From NCBI GenBank assembly GCA_944392695.1, contig CALXXN010000004.1:62001-126000 (forward strand): a DNA stretch of 64,000 nucleotides, written 5' to 3'. The translations under genes were made by a program, and so were the position numbers. Shown here in pieces: positions 3,174 through 33,458 of this stretch; the first letter of the stretch is position 1; each line of letters starts with the position of its first letter. This stretch comes from an uncultured Spirochaetales bacterium. Its GTDB lineage: Bacteria > Spirochaetota > Spirochaetia > Sphaerochaetales > Sphaerochaetaceae. The notes beneath the pieces are model-generated. The model saw only the letters and a list, made by a program, of their open reading frames with translations. It did no database searches and was not told the origin of the DNA.

Positions 3174-3732
3174 CATCACTCTATTGCTGGTCACAGGCCT
3201 CCTTTCCTCTTGTGAGGAAGGAGGCTTCAGTGTCCAATCACCAAGCCTGGCCCAGGAAGTGGTGTATGACAGTGATGGTTCCTCGTCACGCCACCTGGTC
3301 TTCTCCGCTTCGATGAGCGTTGATGATTCCTATTCGCTCTCGCTCACAGGTCCTGATGGCCTTGTCTGGGAGGGCGCGCTCACGAACGAGCCCCCCTACT
3401 ACATTTCTGATGAGCTGATGCTTACAAGGGGGGCTTCCTTCAGTGAAGGGGATTATGGATGGCGCATCATGAACAGCCATGGGCGTGAAGTCACTGGCAC
3501 CATCAGCTGGCAGGAGGGTGATGTGGTCCTGCCAGGCATCAACCGCTATGGCTGGGTGGAGGCGGATGGACCCGTGCTGGTGCGTTCATCTGATGGCGCC
3601 CAAGCCAAGCTTCAACCAATGGAGGAGGTGCCTTTCACAGGCCCTGTGTCGCTGACTGTGCAGGATGGCCATGGCAACAGCTACACAGTCAATTCGTCCG
3701 TCCCACCATCAGCCTCAAGTCCTTCTCCTTGA
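3151..3732 (+). CDS. Putative lipoprotein of unknown function
   Basis: 193 residues starting at TTG 3151, with GTGAGGT about 6 nt upstream and inside the end of the acyltransferase gene. The N-terminus is a lipoprotein signal (basic MRHLR, hydrophobic SITLLLVTG, lipobox LSSC), so the mature protein would be lipidated and start CEEGGFSV. The rest is Ser/Gly-rich with alternating polar/hydrophobic stretches that suggest a beta-sandwich. I do not recognise a family. The last 44 nt overlap the 3' end of convergent mutL. Confidence 0.62.
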   Translation: MRHLRALSITLLLVTGLLSSCEEGGFSVQSPSLAQEVVYDSDGSSSRHLVFSASMSVDDSYSLSLTGPDGLVWEGALTNEPPYYISDELMLTRGASFSEGDYGWRIMNSHGREVTGTISWQEGDVVLPGINRYGWVEADGPVLVRSSDGAQAKLQPMEEVPFTGPVSLTVQDGHGNSYTVNSSVPPSASSPSP

Positions 3733-5521
3733 GCCGGATCACGAAGGTGCGTCCATGTGGGCAGCTGGGGTCCTCCAGGCGGAAGACGCCTTCAACCAGG
3801 GCCTTGGCCGCATGTTCATCGATCACATCCCCCGCCTTGATCGCCGCATGGCAGGCGACGATGGCGTAAAGACCAGCCTCGATCTCCTCCTCGCTTCCCA
3901 CGGCTTTCTGGATGAAGTCGACAAGCTTGTGCTCCTGTCCCTCACTACCATGTGGTATGCTGTCGAGTTCCCAGAGCTTGTCTGCCTTGCGTGTCAGCCC
4001 TATGCCGTACTGGGTGTAGATATAGGCGTTGCCCGAGAGGAAGTCATCGACATCGGCTTCTGTCTCGAACTCTATTGGGGTAAGCAAGGGCTGTACGTCG
4101 CGGCGTTGCCTGAGTTCATTGAAGATCAACCTCTCATGGGCTGCGTGCTGGTCGACAAGCCAGAGTTCATCACCACGCTCACACAGCAGGAAGAGCCTGA
4201 AGGCCTGTCCAATGTAGCGTATTGGCACTTCGCTGTCCTTCCAGACGGATGAGGTGGCTTCAGCTTCAAGCCTGTGCTGCGTGGGCTCTGGCTGTGGGGC
4301 TTTGGCCGGCCTGTCTTTGAAGAGCTCCTTCGCCTTCTCAAGCCAGGCTGTGTCACGTGGCTTCTCATTCACAGCCTCCACTTTGTGTGGAGTATATGAT
4401 GCCGAGGGTGACCTCAGCGCCCAGCTGAGGCGGTCCGCACTACGCCCTGGATCCTCCCAGCTTGTGCTGACAGCTGCCTGCAGTCCTGGAAGCCCAGGCT
4501 GTTCTCCTCCTGCCTTGAGGGTGGGGATCTGACGTGGCAGGCCTGCATGGATCAAGCTGTGTACCTCATGATGGACCTGGGCCTTGTTGCGTATCCTCAC
4601 CTCCCTCTTGGCAGGGTGGATGTTGAAGTCGACCAGTGAGCTGTCATCCTCAAGGAAGAGGACGGTGTAGGGGAAGGCGCCTCCCGGGAGGATCTCCCCA
4701 TAGCCATGGGTCACGGCCTGGACGAGTGAGAACTCATCGACAGGCCGTTTGTTGACGTAAATCTTGATCCGGCTCCTGTCGCTGCGTCTGAGTGCCGGCA
4801 GGGATGTGACAATCTTCAGCGAGAAGTCATCATAGCTCTTCTCGAGGTAGGTGAAGTCAGACCTCGAGACACCTTCCTCAAGGGTGAGTATGTCGAGGAC
4901 CCTGTCCTCAAGCTTCTCCCTCTTTGGAAGGTCGACACGCAGGATCCCGTCCTGACGGAAGGAGAAGTGCACAGAGGGGAAGGCCATGGCCTTGGCGACC
5001 AGTGTCGAGCGGCAAAGCCCTGCCTCGCTGGCTGGGCGTTTCAGGAAGCCCCTCCTCGCGGGGACTTCGGAAAAGAGGTCCTCAACAGTCACGATCGTGC
5101 CCTGGTCAGGGCCACCTTCGACGGCGTCGAAGACCCGGCCATTGTCAGCACGTATGGTCCAGGGCCGTCCTCCAAGGTAGGATGATGCGATTGATACCCT
5201 GCTGACAGCGGCCACCGAGTGCAATGCTTCTCCTCTGAAGCCCATCGTATGGATCTGGTACAGGTCATCCAGGCTGTGGATCTTGCTGGTCGCATACTGT
5301 GTCAGGGCAAGGGGGAGGTCCTCTTTTGACATGCCCTTGCCATTGTCCTGGACGACGATGCTGTCGATTCCACCGCCTATGACGGAGACTGAGACCTCGT
5401 CAGCACCTGCGTCGATCGCATTGTCCACAAGCTCCCTGACAACGCTCTGGGGACGCTCTATGACTTCGCCCGCCGCTATGCGGGCTGCGAGTATGTTATC
5501 AAGTAGTCTTATTTCCGACAT
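3689..5521 (-). CDS. mutL: DNA mismatch repair protein MutL
   Basis: GHKL ATPase that couples mismatch recognition to strand incision in repair. All N-terminal ATP-binding motifs are visible: LVDNAIDAGAD (the usual Glu before the Asn is Asp here), VQDNGKGM, TMGFRGEAL and the ATSKI loop. The C-terminal dimerisation domain contains LWLVDQHAAHERLIFNELR, ACHAAIKAGDVI and a terminal CPHGRTF segment like those of MutL endonucleases. A longer frame runs to 5572, but the conserved N-terminus begins at MSEIRLLD (5521). A TGTTATAAT element ends 7 nt before this ATG and no SD is usable, which predicts a leaderless mRNA. 610 residues is normal length. Confidence 0.95.
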   Translation of the reverse strand: MSEIRLLDNILAARIAAGEVIERPQSVVRELVDNAIDAGADEVSVSVIGGGIDSIVVQDNGKGMSKEDLPLALTQYATSKIHSLDDLYQIHTMGFRGEALHSVAAVSRVSIASSYLGGRPWTIRADNGRVFDAVEGGPDQGTIVTVEDLFSEVPARRGFLKRPASEAGLCRSTLVAKAMAFPSVHFSFRQDGILRVDLPKREKLEDRVLDILTLEEGVSRSDFTYLEKSYDDFSLKIVTSLPALRRSDRSRIKIYVNKRPVDEFSLVQAVTHGYGEILPGGAFPYTVLFLEDDSSLVDFNIHPAKREVRIRNKAQVHHEVHSLIHAGLPRQIPTLKAGGEQPGLPGLQAAVSTSWEDPGRSADRLSWALRSPSASYTPHKVEAVNEKPRDTAWLEKAKELFKDRPAKAPQPEPTQHRLEAEATSSVWKDSEVPIRYIGQAFRLFLLCERGDELWLVDQHAAHERLIFNELRQRRDVQPLLTPIEFETEADVDDFLSGNAYIYTQYGIGLTRKADKLWELDSIPHGSEGQEHKLVDFIQKAVGSEEEIEAGLYAIVACHAAIKAGDVIDEHAAKALVEGVFRLEDPSCPHGRTFVIRLKEKDLRLMVGRTN

Positions 5522-5528
5522 GTGGAGG

Positions 5529-5537
5529 ATTATAACA
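5529..5537 (-). promoter_or_regulatory. Extended -10 promoter of mutL, predicted leaderless
   Basis: On the minus strand TGTTATAAT is a perfect extended -10. Seven nucleotides separate TATAAT from the mutL ATG, so the expected transcription start coincides with or abuts the A of the start codon. Confidence 0.7.
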
Positions 5538-5586
5538 CCAAGGCGGGGTGGGGTGCACAGCAGGAGTGTCAATCCTACTGTCTCTG

Positions 5587-7980
5587 TCAGAATCGCAGCG
5601 TGCTTATGATTGAAAATCCCAGTGTCGAGGCTTCTCCATCCGCGATGACTACGTTGTCGTAATCCGGGTCTTCTGAAAGCGGGGCGCTTGAGAAGAGGGA
5701 GAAGTAGAAGCCAAGATGGCCGAAGGTCTTCTCAACAGAGAGGGAGAACACGTTGTCAGGCGAGAAGAAGAATGAGCCTGCATCCGTCCACTCCCTTATG
5801 CCACCGACAAGGTTGCGTCTCACCATCGCGGCGCTTATGTCCACATCATTGTAGGTGTAGCTCAGTGAGAGGGTGAGCTGGTCGCCGGAGCGTCCGCTGG
5901 CGAGGCTGGAGAAGTCAACGACCTCGTAGGAGACCTGTCCATTGAAGCGCTCCGCCTCGTAACCCAGTCCAAGTTGCAAGTATCCGGCAAGTCCTTCTAT
6001 CCAGGCTGTGTCCGCACACTCGCTGAGTCCAAGACGGGTGAAGGCGTCGAAGTGATGTTCCCTGGCGCGTCCTGTGGCCACGCCACCTGACAGGGGGATG
6101 GTGAAGCCTCCTATCCTGGCTTCCAACGCCAGTCCGGCCGCGAGTTCCTGGTCAGGTCCGAAGACATGCATCAGGAAGCTTGTCGGAGAGAACTCCATGA
6201 TCGTGCTCACATAGGTTGACAGGTCAAGCCTGCCATCAAGGAAGGTCTTGCCCATCGAGATCCTTGGTATGAGCAAGGCCTCGTAATCAAGCGCGTTGAA
6301 CTTCATGTCCATCGCCGCTTCGACTGTGACCTCGGGTCCGATGCTGCCCATGGGCAGTACTGATACGGAGAAGGACATGATACGAGGCCTCTCCAGGTTG
6401 TCGGCGAAGAGAGAGAGCGATGCCCTGGATGGAATCACCAGTAGGGCGTCCAGGCTGAGCGGGGCCTGGCGTCCATAGGAGCCATAGGAGGGGTCGAAGA
6501 AGGAAGGGGCTGGCACCCTGTCCTCACGGGAGAGGAAGAGGTGGGAGGATGTTACACTGCCGATGTTGATGGACTCGATCATCGTGGCGATGTCGGTGAA
6601 GAAGTCGTAGAGCAGGTCGAAGGTCGACCCTGACCCGATGCCGAAGTCGTACCATATGTCATCCTGCTCATTGCCGAAAGAGAGGTGTCCGTCGGAGGTG
6701 GAGAGTATGAAGGGGAAGCGCAGGGCGAAAGAGGAGTCCTCCAGGAGGAAGGTGAGCCGTGGCCTGATGAAGACCGAGGAGCTTGTCCCATAGCTGTAGC
6801 CGGTGTCCAATGCGACTTCGAGCCAGGATGGTGTTGTCGATAGGTGGCCTGTGTCAGGTGCGAAGATGGCACGGTAACCATCGACAGCGGCAGAGAAGGC
6901 GATCTCAGGTACGAGACCTTCGTTGAAGTAGACGGCCATGCGGGTCTCAATGGCCTCGTTCTGATAACCGAGGGCTATGAAGCCCTGGCCATGCTCGTCC
7001 CAGGCGTTTGTGGTATCTGTGACAAGACCCATCATGCGCACACCAGCCGCGAGGCTTATGTCGAAGAGCTCTCCTGAGAACTCGAATGAGAAGTAGTCCT
7101 CGCCTTCCACGATGCGTCCCGTGTTGTTCTCAAGCGGCAGCTGGAGGTCGATGATCAGGGAGAAGGGGTCCACGACATAGGAGGCACTTGAGTGGAACAT
7201 CAATGTGTTCCCGTTGTCACGTTCTGTGATGTAGCCGTTGAGGAACTGTCCATATTGCAGGCCGCCCACTGTCCAGGCGATGCCTGTGTCAAGGGAGAAG
7301 CGTCCCGCGGTGAGCGGCACGCTCACAGACATGCCCCAGCCGTCGACGGCCTGGTCGGATGCCAGGTCGAAGGCCATGGCTCCTGTGACCTGCAAGGCGA
7401 GGTCCACGACACTGCTTTCGATGAGTGGTGCGTAGACATGGGCCTCTGGGTAGAAGACGAGGTCCTTGAGCGCCTCATGGTCGACCTGGGTCAGCAAGGA
7501 GAGTCCGAAGCGCATGCCCTGCCCCGGGATGTTGTAGTTGGCGCTGTAGTTCAGGAAGCCTTCCTCTTCCTGCAAGGTGATGTCGCTGTAGCTGAGCGTA
7601 TGGGTGTACCAGGTCCCCTCGTAAGTGCTCAGGAGGGAGAGGCTGTCCGTCGTTGGTTTGAAGGAGTTCGTCAGGGCTGATGACACACCGAAGGGGTCGG
7701 CGGGGAGGATCAGCTTGCTGCCTATATTGAAGGTGAAACGCCCATCAAGGGCCTGCCAGTCGACTTCGCTGATATACCGGGTGATGTAGCTGACCCAGTC
7801 CCTCCATCCATCGGCCTCTGCTGCCGAAGGGATGTGGAAGGGGTCAAGGCTGAAACGTACAAGGAGATTGTCGAGTCTTATCTCCGGCTGGAAGGCGAAG
7901 GAGAGCACGGCCTCCTCACCTGCGCTCTGCGTCATGCTGGTGAGCAGCCTGATGTTGAACGCTGGTGGCTCCGCATCCAC
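5587..7980 (-). CDS. Outer-membrane beta-barrel protein, probably the 3' half of a frameshifted gene
   Basis: 797 residues from the first GTG of the frame (7980), composed of alternating hydrophobic/polar strands rich in aromatic and Gly residues, and ending STLRF. A C-terminal Phe after such strands is the BAM-recognised signature of outer-membrane barrels. It has no signal peptide and the GTG has no SD. The frame stays open upstream without a stop to the A9 run at 8086-8094 and beyond, encoding KKKPVGDSTSSDAAPVDW on the way. A -1 shift there would join it to the exported FecR-like protein encoded immediately upstream. I therefore regard it as the C-terminal domain of one surface protein. 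The barrel family is not identified. Confidence 0.7.
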   Translation of the reverse strand: MDAEPPAFNIRLLTSMTQSAGEEAVLSFAFQPEIRLDNLLVRFSLDPFHIPSAAEADGWRDWVSYITRYISEVDWQALDGRFTFNIGSKLILPADPFGVSSALTNSFKPTTDSLSLLSTYEGTWYTHTLSYSDITLQEEEGFLNYSANYNIPGQGMRFGLSLLTQVDHEALKDLVFYPEAHVYAPLIESSVVDLALQVTGAMAFDLASDQAVDGWGMSVSVPLTAGRFSLDTGIAWTVGGLQYGQFLNGYITERDNGNTLMFHSSASYVVDPFSLIIDLQLPLENNTGRIVEGEDYFSFEFSGELFDISLAAGVRMMGLVTDTTNAWDEHGQGFIALGYQNEAIETRMAVYFNEGLVPEIAFSAAVDGYRAIFAPDTGHLSTTPSWLEVALDTGYSYGTSSSVFIRPRLTFLLEDSSFALRFPFILSTSDGHLSFGNEQDDIWYDFGIGSGSTFDLLYDFFTDIATMIESINIGSVTSSHLFLSREDRVPAPSFFDPSYGSYGRQAPLSLDALLVIPSRASLSLFADNLERPRIMSFSVSVLPMGSIGPEVTVEAAMDMKFNALDYEALLIPRISMGKTFLDGRLDLSTYVSTIMEFSPTSFLMHVFGPDQELAAGLALEARIGGFTIPLSGGVATGRAREHHFDAFTRLGLSECADTAWIEGLAGYLQLGLGYEAERFNGQVSYEVVDFSSLASGRSGDQLTLSLSYTYNDVDISAAMVRRNLVGGIREWTDAGSFFFSPDNVFSLSVEKTFGHLGFYFSLFSSAPLSEDPDYDNVVIADGEASTLGFSIISTLRF

Positions 7981-8078
7981 CTCACTTGCAGGCTCCCCTG
8001 CAGGCCTTGGATACGCTACGACGCCAGTGACTGGTATGTTCCAATCGACTGGCGCCGCATCTGATGAGGTGGAATCAC

Positions 8079-9296
8079 CTACTGGTTTTTTTTTAGATCC
8101 TCGATATGTGACTCGTAGGTCGGCACTGCAGGAGCCGCAGGGACGGCGGCTTCTGTCAAGACCTCATGGAAGGCGGGGGCAGAAGGAACGCCTATGGCTG
8201 CATTGGTCGTGACAAGGGAGAAGGCAGGGGCTGCTGGTGTGGTCCCATCCTCCTGTGCATGGACGCTGATGATCTGTGGCGCTGCGGGGATGAAGATGCC
8301 AAGCAGGTACTGGTCAAGGAAGAATGTGACATCATCGACGACAAGCTCGATGTCATCAATCGTGTAAGTTCCAAGGTAGCTCAGCTCAAGTCCGCCATCG
8401 ACCTTCCTGTAGCTGACCTCATCCAGTCCAGGAAGGCTGGTGTAGGCGAGGTAGGCCTGGGCGAAGGCGGCAAGATCCGCATCGCCGACCAGGTCGGCAG
8501 GATAGCTCACACGGCCACTGCCGTTGTCGCTGAAGCGGTATGTGATCCTGATGCCATGGTTCTCATGACTGCCGCGGAGGACTTCCTCGACGATGGGTTC
8601 CACAGGTGTTGTGACAGGAGCCTCTGGAACGGTGAGGTCTTCCTCTTCAGTGGTCGTTATAGGCTCTTCCGGAGTTCCTGTCACGGCTGGGACCTCTTCC
8701 TCAGGGATGATCACAGGCTCCTCTCCAAGCTCCTGTGCCTCGGCAGGTGATGCGTAAAGAGGTACATTGAAAAGACCTGCGAGCAGGTCGCTGTAGTGTG
8801 CGGATGAAATCGTGCTCCCACCCCTGCGCAGTGCGTCGTAGAGGAGGACGTCACCACCATTCCAGTTTGTGAAACGGTCGCTTTCCGCAGTGTAGGAAGC
8901 TGTGTAGCTGCCGCTTCCAGGGATTGTGTAGCGGGAGGTCGGTGTGTAGAGGTTGAGCCCTTCGACAGCATTGACATCCAGTGTGACGGAACCATCAATC
9001 AGGTAGAGGCTGGGGCTCTCAAGGTTGTAGCCAGTGATTGCCAGGATCGTGCCATCACTGACTGTGATATCGCCGAAGACGGAGGTGAAGACGACGTCGC
9101 TTCCCGAAGTGCGGACAACATAGCCGTCCTGGGCTATGCCGCCAAGCGGATCCGCAGGCTGCCCGTCCGGTGTGTAGAGCATGACCGAATCCATGTTGCC
9201 TTCACAGAGGAAGAGCGGATCGGTTCCAGCCGCCAGGAGGGGGAGGGCCATCAGGGCCGTCAAGATAGCAAGTGCAAGTGTTTTCCGTCTTTTCAC
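8079..9296 (-). CDS. Exported FecR-like protein, probable 5' half of a split surface protein
   Basis: 405 residues from GTG 9296 (AAAGGGG 7-8 nt upstream). A clear signal peptide (KRRK, then LALAILTALMALPLLAAG) is followed by a beta-rich region with GDITVSDGTILAITG and SRYTIPGSGSYTA that resembles the FecR fold. Next come an acidic Pro/Thr/Glu linker (about residues 195-240), a second globular part, and an Ala/Pro-rich tail ending HIEDLKKNQ. The last codons lie in the A9 run, and the stop falls just after it. The lack of a membrane anchor, and the barrel downstream without a signal peptide, suggest the two form one protein of about 1,235 residues if the frame is corrected. FecR assignment is by pattern only. 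Confidence 0.68.
   Translation of the reverse strand: MKRRKTLALAILTALMALPLLAAGTDPLFLCEGNMDSVMLYTPDGQPADPLGGIAQDGYVVRTSGSDVVFTSVFGDITVSDGTILAITGYNLESPSLYLIDGSVTLDVNAVEGLNLYTPTSRYTIPGSGSYTASYTAESDRFTNWNGGDVLLYDALRRGGSTISSAHYSDLLAGLFNVPLYASPAEAQELGEEPVIIPEEEVPAVTGTPEEPITTTEEEDLTVPEAPVTTPVEPIVEEVLRGSHENHGIRITYRFSDNGSGRVSYPADLVGDADLAAFAQAYLAYTSLPGLDEVSYRKVDGGLELSYLGTYTIDDIELVVDDVTFFLDQYLLGIFIPAAPQIISVHAQEDGTTPAAPAFSLVTTNAAIGVPSAPAFHEVLTEAAVPAAPAVPTYESHIEDLKKNQ
8086..8094 (-). other. A9 homopolymer / potential -1 frameshift or phase-variation site
   Basis: On the coding strand the run reads CTAAAAAAAAACCAG. In the upstream frame it is decoded L-K-K-N-Q-stop. The -1 frame continues K-K-K-P-V-G into the barrel. 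The heptamers A-AAA-AAA and A-AAA-AAC both occur in slippery register, and gain of a single A would also fuse the frames. Confidence 0.75.
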
Positions 9297-9362: not shown

Positions 9363-10148
9363 TCATCTTTTTTCCCCACAGTCATGCACAGGCAGCGCGC
9401 AGTCGAAATGATGGGCGTTGTAGATGTGCTCCCGGGTCAGTCCATCGATGTGGCATAACTGGCCGACGATGGGTTTGAGCGAGGAGCGTATGTTCGTCTG
9501 GTCATGGGGACATACAGGTTTGACCGTTGGCAGGTCATAACGTTCTGAGAGCCGCCTTGTGACGCTCTCATGGGTCTCTATCAAGGGCCTTATGATATGC
9601 AATTTGCCATCGAAGAACTCCTGGACTGGCTTCATCGTCGAGAAGTCGGCGCGGAAGCAGAGGTTCATCAGGCTTGTCTCGACCAGGTCATCGAGGTGAT
9701 GTCCCATCGCGATCAGCCTGATCCCATGCCTGGCGGCGTACTCGAAGAGTATCCTCCTGCGGTTCCGTGAGCATAGGTAGCAGTTGAACTCACCCTTGAA
9801 GGATTCCGGGTACTGGGCTTCATCGACGATCTCGAATGGGATGGAGAGCGTGTCGAAGTAGCTTGCCAGCTTCGACCTGTATGCGACAGGTATGGGGTGT
9901 TCGTTCCAATCGATCATCAGCGCACGCAGCTTGTAGGACACAGGCAGCCAGCGCAGGCGCAGCGAGAGGGCGAGGGCCAGGGCCAGGCTGTCCTTGCCTC
10001 CTGAGACCGCCAGCAGGACCTCGTCACCTTCCTGGATCATGTGGTAGCGGTTGATCGTACGTCCAGCTCCTTTGATGAAGCGCATCACCCAGGGTGGGAT
10101 CGAACCTCCCACCAGGTCGGCGACAGGGAGCTTGTCAGAGGATTCCAT
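9363..10148 (-). CDS. ttcA: TtcA-like tRNA thiolation PP-loop ATPase
   Basis: A probable tRNA 2-thiocytidine synthetase: it adenylates C32 and transfers sulfur. The PP-loop LLAVSGGKDSLALA is at about residues 46-60. A CxxC (NCYLCSRNRRR) is at about residue 122, then MGHHLDDLVETSLMNLCF and a third Cys in KPVCPHD, matching the [4Fe-4S]-binding pattern of TtcA/TtuA proteins. 261 residues is close to the family length. The start overlaps the end of the HD gene by 14 nt, with AGGAGG 6 nt before the ATG, so the two are translationally coupled. TilS is less likely because of the paired cysteines. Confidence 0.82.
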   Translation of the reverse strand: MESSDKLPVADLVGGSIPPWVMRFIKGAGRTINRYHMIQEGDEVLLAVSGGKDSLALALALSLRLRWLPVSYKLRALMIDWNEHPIPVAYRSKLASYFDTLSIPFEIVDEAQYPESFKGEFNCYLCSRNRRRILFEYAARHGIRLIAMGHHLDDLVETSLMNLCFRADFSTMKPVQEFFDGKLHIIRPLIETHESVTRRLSERYDLPTVKPVCPHDQTNIRSSLKPIVGQLCHIDGLTREHIYNAHHFDCALPVHDCGEKR

Positions 10149-33355: not shown

Positions 33356-33458
33356 GTAGACACACACGTACCGGGCCCCTGGGGCCTTGGTGTGGTTTTC
33401 AAGGAGGAAGCAGGGGAGCAGTCCCAGTCACAGCTGTTTCTCCTGCAGAAAAAAAAAC

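Follow-up and report, generated by a model that had tools for sequence, protein, structure and literature searches.

A probable programmed -1 frameshift would join a FecR-like protein to a predicted outer-membrane barrel in Sphaerochaetaceae

A gene upstream of mutL in an uncultured Spirochaetales bacterium very probably uses a programmed -1 frameshift to make both a FecR-like protein (405 aa) and a FecR-barrel fusion (about 1,236 aa). The two reading frames lie in a 64,000-nucleotide stretch of DNA (the window). The split arrangement is conserved in related species, always with the same direction of shift, with one of two types of shift site and with no separate start for the barrel; other relatives carry a single ORF or the FecR-like protein alone. 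From these sequences we infer that slippage occurs, and likewise its rate, its mechanism and the function of both products. The features of the locus are as follows.

9363..10148, minus strand: TtcA-like (PP-loop) gene, next gene upstream, marking the orthologous locus; named TtcA from its motifs
8079..9296, minus strand: upstream 0-frame ORF with a GTG start, predicted exported FecR-like protein of 405 aa (N-terminal hydrophobic stretch; N-terminal helix 4-22 in the model)
9228..9296, minus strand: signal-peptide-like N-terminus, residues 1-23, VKRRKTLALAILTALMALPLLAA (mean hydropathy 2.7 over 12 residues, judged without a dedicated predictor)
8736..9131, minus strand: predicted FecR-fold domain, residues 56-187 of the upstream ORF (model pLDDT mostly 93-98)
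8086..8094, minus strand: putative A9 shift site, CTA AAA AAA AAC, with in-phase heptamers A_AAA_AAA and A_AAA_AAC (A9 kept in 16 split species)
8079-8081, minus strand: stop codon TAG of the upstream ORF (from the sequence)
8017..8059, minus strand: hairpin 27-69 nt past A9 (folding compared with shuffles)
5587..8094, minus strand: -1-frame (trans-frame) part of 833 residues, stop at 5587-5589 (from the sequence)
5590..7959, minus strand: predicted outer-membrane beta-barrel with many amphipathic strands and a C-terminal Phe (AlphaFold2 mean pLDDT 67; Foldseek and VIA-align)
3689..5572, minus strand: mutL, next gene downstream, marking the orthologous locus (ORF and neighbourhood comparison)

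The run appears as T9 on the plus strand at 8086-8094, which is A9 on the coding minus strand, and the upstream ORF ends CAT ATC GAG GAT CTA AAA AAA AAC CAG TAG. An earlier sequence-only reading had placed nine As at the end of an ORF with a signal peptide and a FecR-like region, and re-reading the sequence confirmed both its coordinates and its description. It had also seen that the -1 frame is open from upstream of the run into a 797-codon barrel with a terminal Phe and no signal peptide of its own. This holds: the frame is open beginning 85 nt 5' of the upstream stop, measures 797 aa when counted from its first start-like codon (7980) to its end at 5587, and has the C-terminus ...ISTLRF. 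A shift within A9 would give a fusion of about 1,236 aa (403 upstream and 833 downstream residues), in agreement with the roughly 1,235 residues estimated earlier. The predicted trans-frame peptide in the window species is ...IEDLKKKPVGDSTSSDAAPVDW..., with KKKPVGDSTSS as the string across the site. Standard decoding would yield an exported FecR-like protein that ends just past the slippery site, while a fraction of the products would slip into the -1 frame, giving a single protein that combines the signal peptide with the FecR domain and the barrel. Frameshifting would be the only evident route for export of the barrel.

Predicted structures support a FecR/PupR-type periplasmic fold for the upstream protein. 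The model of the N-terminal part has a mean pLDDT of 84.5, and residues 56-187 align by VIA-align with PupR (6ovk; Z 15.4, 123 residues, 2.4 A) and with the putative anti-sigma factor BDI_1681 (Z 14.2), with 119-123 residues and 2.2-2.4 A across both matches. Foldseek matches the FecR-like part to 4m0h (E 2.9e-4). The proteins of the window have no family match in Pfam or NCBIfam; PF04773 does not match the window protein and weakly matches 1/39 relatives (best E 0.004). The FecR-like region proposed by the sequence-only reading therefore lacks Pfam support in the window protein, but its predicted fold agrees. A cytoplasmic anti-sigma domain before a membrane helix is absent, as the protein begins with the signal-peptide-like helix and nothing precedes it. 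A second small alpha/beta domain follows the FecR fold (residues 236-330 of the upstream ORF, window ~8307-8591), with a likeness in fold only to part of K. lactis urea carboxylase and to the KipI N-terminal domain (Z 8.8 and 6.4).

The -1-frame part is predicted, with moderate confidence, to be a large outer-membrane beta-barrel. Its AlphaFold2 model is strand-rich at a mean pLDDT of 67, with closure of the whole barrel not confidently modelled, and the matches listed by Foldseek and VIA-align are membrane barrels, including LptD, AlgE and porins. Fold comparison thus bears out the barrel that had been proposed from sequence. LptD is the top Foldseek match (E 1.5e-8), but we do not identify the barrel as LptD given a TM of 0.14 and 9% identity on a model of pLDDT 67. 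The barrel of the window protein has no TonB-receptor match in Pfam.

A family-wide profile search for the barrel covered 139 genomes (an order-level search covered the same 139) and found it in 61 of them; we fetched these loci and compared their reading frames. A contig scan with the protein alone had given no match, and one with an alignment recovered the genus of the window. One weak profile match (L101) gave no ORF match and is not counted among the scored loci. Within the genus of the window, g1, which is Candidatus Aphodenecus by one named member (Candidatus Aphodenecus pullistercoris), 10 of the 16 genomes encode the barrel, and in none is the FecR part in the same frame. Here the -1-frame barrels share 32-39% identity with the window over ~830 residues, with 68 invariant columns. 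Together with 11 species of genus g10, these 10 species make up 21 split orthologues. In all 21 the barrel lies in the -1 frame, and the two ORFs overlap by 16-175 nt. The other scorable barrel-bearing relatives each have one uninterrupted ORF, with the same N-terminus where it was fetched; these are the single-ORF homologues that the sequence-only reading had suggested searching for, and their unbroken frames led us to reject the idea that the fused relatives are pseudogenes. That reading had also held that close relatives with two separately started genes, each with its own SD and signal peptide, would speak against a joined product; we looked for such relatives and found none.

Every barrel locus directly precedes mutL, and a ttcA-like gene lies 5' of it in most loci where the fetched DNA extends that far. 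The FecR-like protein also occurs before mutL with the barrel absent, in five g1 genomes (G001, G003, G004, G006 and G007; the G003 contig stops short of the upstream gene) and five g10 genomes (G030, G031, G032, G047 and G057), at loci L128, L129, L130, L131, L133, L134, L135, L136, L137 and L140. The locus therefore occurs in three states: FecR alone, fusion alone, and a frameshift arrangement that would give both.

Two types of site are found in the overlaps. A run of exactly nine As is present in 16 of the 21 split species, with no A8, A10 or longer run seen; each species is represented by one genome, in most cases a MAG, and run length is therefore compared between species. Its codon phase differs between the genera, being NNA AAA AAA AAC in g1 and GAA/CAA AAA AAA ACN in g10, which places both A_AAA_AAA and A_AAA_AAC in phase in g1 and A_AAA_AAA in g10. 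The 0-frame stop follows within about seven codons of A9. In L058, L059 and L071-L073 the -1 frame has a TGA immediately 5' of the run, and in L006/L008 it has one two codons 5' of it; the shift is therefore pinned to A9 in these species. The remaining five species, all in g1 (L003, L004, L005, L010 and L011), have no A run in the overlap and no homopolymer longer than C5. All five carry C_CCT_TTC, the sole in-phase slippery heptamer in their overlaps, 40-70 nt 5' of the 0-frame stop in a P-x-P/A-P-F motif. An X_XXY_YYZ heptamer in the 0-frame phase is thus present in the split orthologues, and besides A9 and C_CCT_TTC the only other one in the 21 overlaps is AAATTTG, in L065/L068. To our knowledge, cellular bacterial genes seldom use C_CCT_TTC as a heptamer. 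One of the C-type species, L005, has six As at and after its 0-frame TGA (L005:1444-1500), where its sisters have A9; this is likely a remnant or precursor of A9, and possibly an intermediate in an exchange of sites.

The A9 run in the ORF overlap is not a product of chance. The 2.31-Mb, 39-contig assembly holds 11 runs of exactly A9 on both strands, and the one at 8086-8094 is the only one inside an overlap of two long same-strand ORFs. An A9 at an xKKN string is expected in ~0.2% of cases under the codon use of the window, because AAA makes up 13% of Lys codons and A-ending codons 13% of all codons. Nor does the protein sequence account for the run: in g1 its first A comes from a codon for L, I or A that nonetheless always ends in A, although A-ending codons make up just 11-23% in the five A9 genomes of this genus, and in the window Lys is seldom encoded by AAA. 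Similarly, NNC CCT TTC is expected at 5-11% of Pro-Phe pairs per C-type genome and is present in 5/5. We also considered the other A9 runs of the genome as further shift sites and rejected them, as each is found outside any overlap of long ORFs on one strand. A second exact A9 in the window, at 33449-33457 (CTGCAGAAAAAAAAACATGAAG), lies immediately 5' of a possible ATG start.

In a tree of MutL and TtcA, the single-ORF genera fall outside, and the split forms occupy two clades, g1 and g10. The 21 split species are thus not independent of one another. The tree needs either two origins of the split form or one origin followed by loss, with two origins apparent. Within g1, species with A9 and species with C_CCT_TTC are intermixed on the tree, which means that the site type has changed within the genus, although support is only moderate at several of the relevant forks. 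Beside the split g10 clade stands an in-frame member, L079 (G065), which keeps A9 in its linker; with one more A, its protein would end after KKKLLFS. The linkers of the other fused g10 homologues have no A run of at least 7, and a few A7/A8 runs occur in distant genera.

The sequence-only reading had left three options for the split: a programmed shift (by ribosome or transcript slippage), phase variation or an assembly error. The 21 split orthologues strongly support the first and all but exclude the last. Homopolymers are error-prone and these are MAG data, but a sequencing or assembly error, or a pseudogene, would have to recur at the orthologous place in 21 species, always as a -1 shift and always before a conserved barrel; the nine-A run turns up in 16 species that were assembled separately, and five more reach the -1 split by another site, so we regard this explanation as practically dismissed. 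Phase variation, in which replication slippage would turn the surface protein on (A10, A7) or off (A9) between cells, is suggested by a homopolymer lying where the two parts of a predicted surface protein meet, a kind of locus known to vary (PMC3711429). We nevertheless consider it very unlikely: the run is exactly A9 in 16/16 A-type split species, five sisters have the same -1 split with no homopolymer longer than C5 in the overlap, and A9 persists in L079, the sole in-frame neighbour of the split g10 clade.

Short overlaps such as these are also typical of translational coupling, and the barrel could be a second gene, translated separately or by re-initiation inside the overlap. This seems less probable still, because start codons in the downstream frames are absent or distant: many species have no -1-frame start near the stop, with none in 120 codons in L059 and others 7-106 codons in, and in the five loci with an adjacent TGA the -1 frame opens only at the run. 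The -1 ORFs of the split species also have no signal-peptide-like or hydrophobic N-terminal stretch, and the barrel could not be exported if it lacked a signal peptide. A programmed -1 frameshift remains much the best explanation.

How the shift would be performed at A9 is more finely balanced. RNA polymerase could slip on the nine As to give A10 messages, or the ribosome could slip on A_AAA_AAA or A_AAA_AAC. Given a programmed frameshift, we slightly favour polymerase slippage, because there are nine As in either codon phase and the conserved length of the run matches a published criterion: purposeful transcriptional slippage is marked by a nine-A run whose length is conserved among homologues (PMC1088944). 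By this measure (about nine A/T, conserved length), the 16 A-type split species and L079 qualify, and the five C-type species do not. Ribosomal slippage at A9 is nearly as likely, because the sites hold heptamers in phase and ribosomal shifting is required in the C-type sisters. At the C_CCT_TTC sites of these five species, ribosomal slippage is the most likely mechanism; by the rules published for E. coli, a heptamer whose X and Z are pyrimidines only and which puts UUC in the A site is prone to shift (PMC4066793).

It is also possible that A9 works purely by -1 ribosomal frameshifting, as C_CCT_TTC probably does, with only the machine differing, and we put this a little short of an even chance. 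The A heptamers are in phase in g1 (both) and in g10 (A_AAA_AAA), the 0-frame stop lies within about seven codons of the run, and the family already requires ribosomal shifting, since the heptamer that the sisters use in this gene is not a homopolymer. Against it, there are nine As in two codon phases though seven suffice for a heptamer, A_AAA_AAC is inefficient in E. coli (PMC4066793), and we found no conserved stimulator. Simple folding of the split loci found no conserved downstream hairpin at the usual distance, strong folds being scattered, and no conserved upstream SD-like stimulator was found, with GAGG/GGAG in some split loci only. The 80 nt past A9 in the window fold at -35.2 kcal/mol, compared with -17.8 in shuffles (z -5.9); the hairpin in this stretch, at 27-69 nt, is farther than usual frameshift stimulators and is not shared by relatives. 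Our tentative proposal, which we hold to be not far from an even call, is that programmed frameshifting arose twice and determines how much FecR protein is soluble relative to how much is barrel-anchored, and that the slip site was swapped between polymerase (A9) and ribosomal (C_CCT_TTC) slippage.

We know of few conserved programmed frameshifts in cellular bacterial genes beyond dnaX, prfB and transposases. Among the closest known cases is A9 transcriptional slippage in Thermus thermophilus dnaX (PMC1088944), which likewise has exactly nine As in a cellular gene and slippage that leads to two products with a common N-terminus. There, however, it is the short product that needs slippage, the long one coming from standard decoding, while here the long product would need the slip; L079 is dnaX-like by comparison. 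The present case also differs in concerning an envelope protein and in having sister species that replace A9 by C_CCT_TTC. The machinery also differs between species for dnaX itself: in some the polymerase slips, in others the ribosome shifts (PMC1088944; PMC3711429). As in the -1 ribosomal frameshifting of E. coli dnaX and the IS1/IS3 families (PMC4066793, PMC5009743), an in-phase X_XXY_YYZ lies shortly 5' of the 0-frame stop and leads to a -1 product, although here no conserved SD-like or stem-loop stimulator was found. In Shigella mxiE, homopolymer slippage also fuses two ORFs and is needed for the longer protein (PMC1088944), but mxiE encodes a transcription activator and slips on a U run, whereas here the run is of As and the added part is a predicted outer-membrane barrel. 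The pairing of a periplasmic FecR fold with an outer-membrane barrel recalls FecR/PupR and their FecA-type barrels (PMC9249621; PDB 6ovk, 4m0h). Those proteins, however, are inner-membrane anti-sigma factors with a separate TonB-dependent receptor, while here the FecR domain follows a signal peptide and would be part of the same polypeptide as the barrel.

Slippage and -1 ribosomal shifting are known kinds of recoding. What is new, as far as the open-licence literature shows, is the product (FecR that is either soluble or joined to the barrel), together with what appear to be two origins and with site types that were exchanged between relatives; we found no report there of a frameshift deciding whether an exported domain is soluble or joined to a barrel. 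Since FecR alone, plain fusion and frameshift all occur at one locus, comparing them offers a test of what the shift is for. The exchange between A9 and C_CCT_TTC suggests that it is frameshifting itself that is kept and, if true, would provide a natural experiment in which a shift is selected while the machinery performing it changes. Annotation pipelines would call such loci two genes or a pseudogene, and similar cases have probably been overlooked.

Two further forms occur among the relatives. L080, L084, L085, L086 and L087 are single-ORF forms of 741-848 aa at the same locus, which match mostly the second half of the barrel profile. In genus g15, the single-ORF homologue L093 (1,562 aa; 14.1 bits to PF04773 over its full length, under the cut-off of 24) has a 5'-nucleotidase/UshA/SoxB-like segment between the FecR-like part and the barrel, at residues ~266-592 (best E 2.3e-22, NCBIfam). 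Other genera may hold different inserts at this position.
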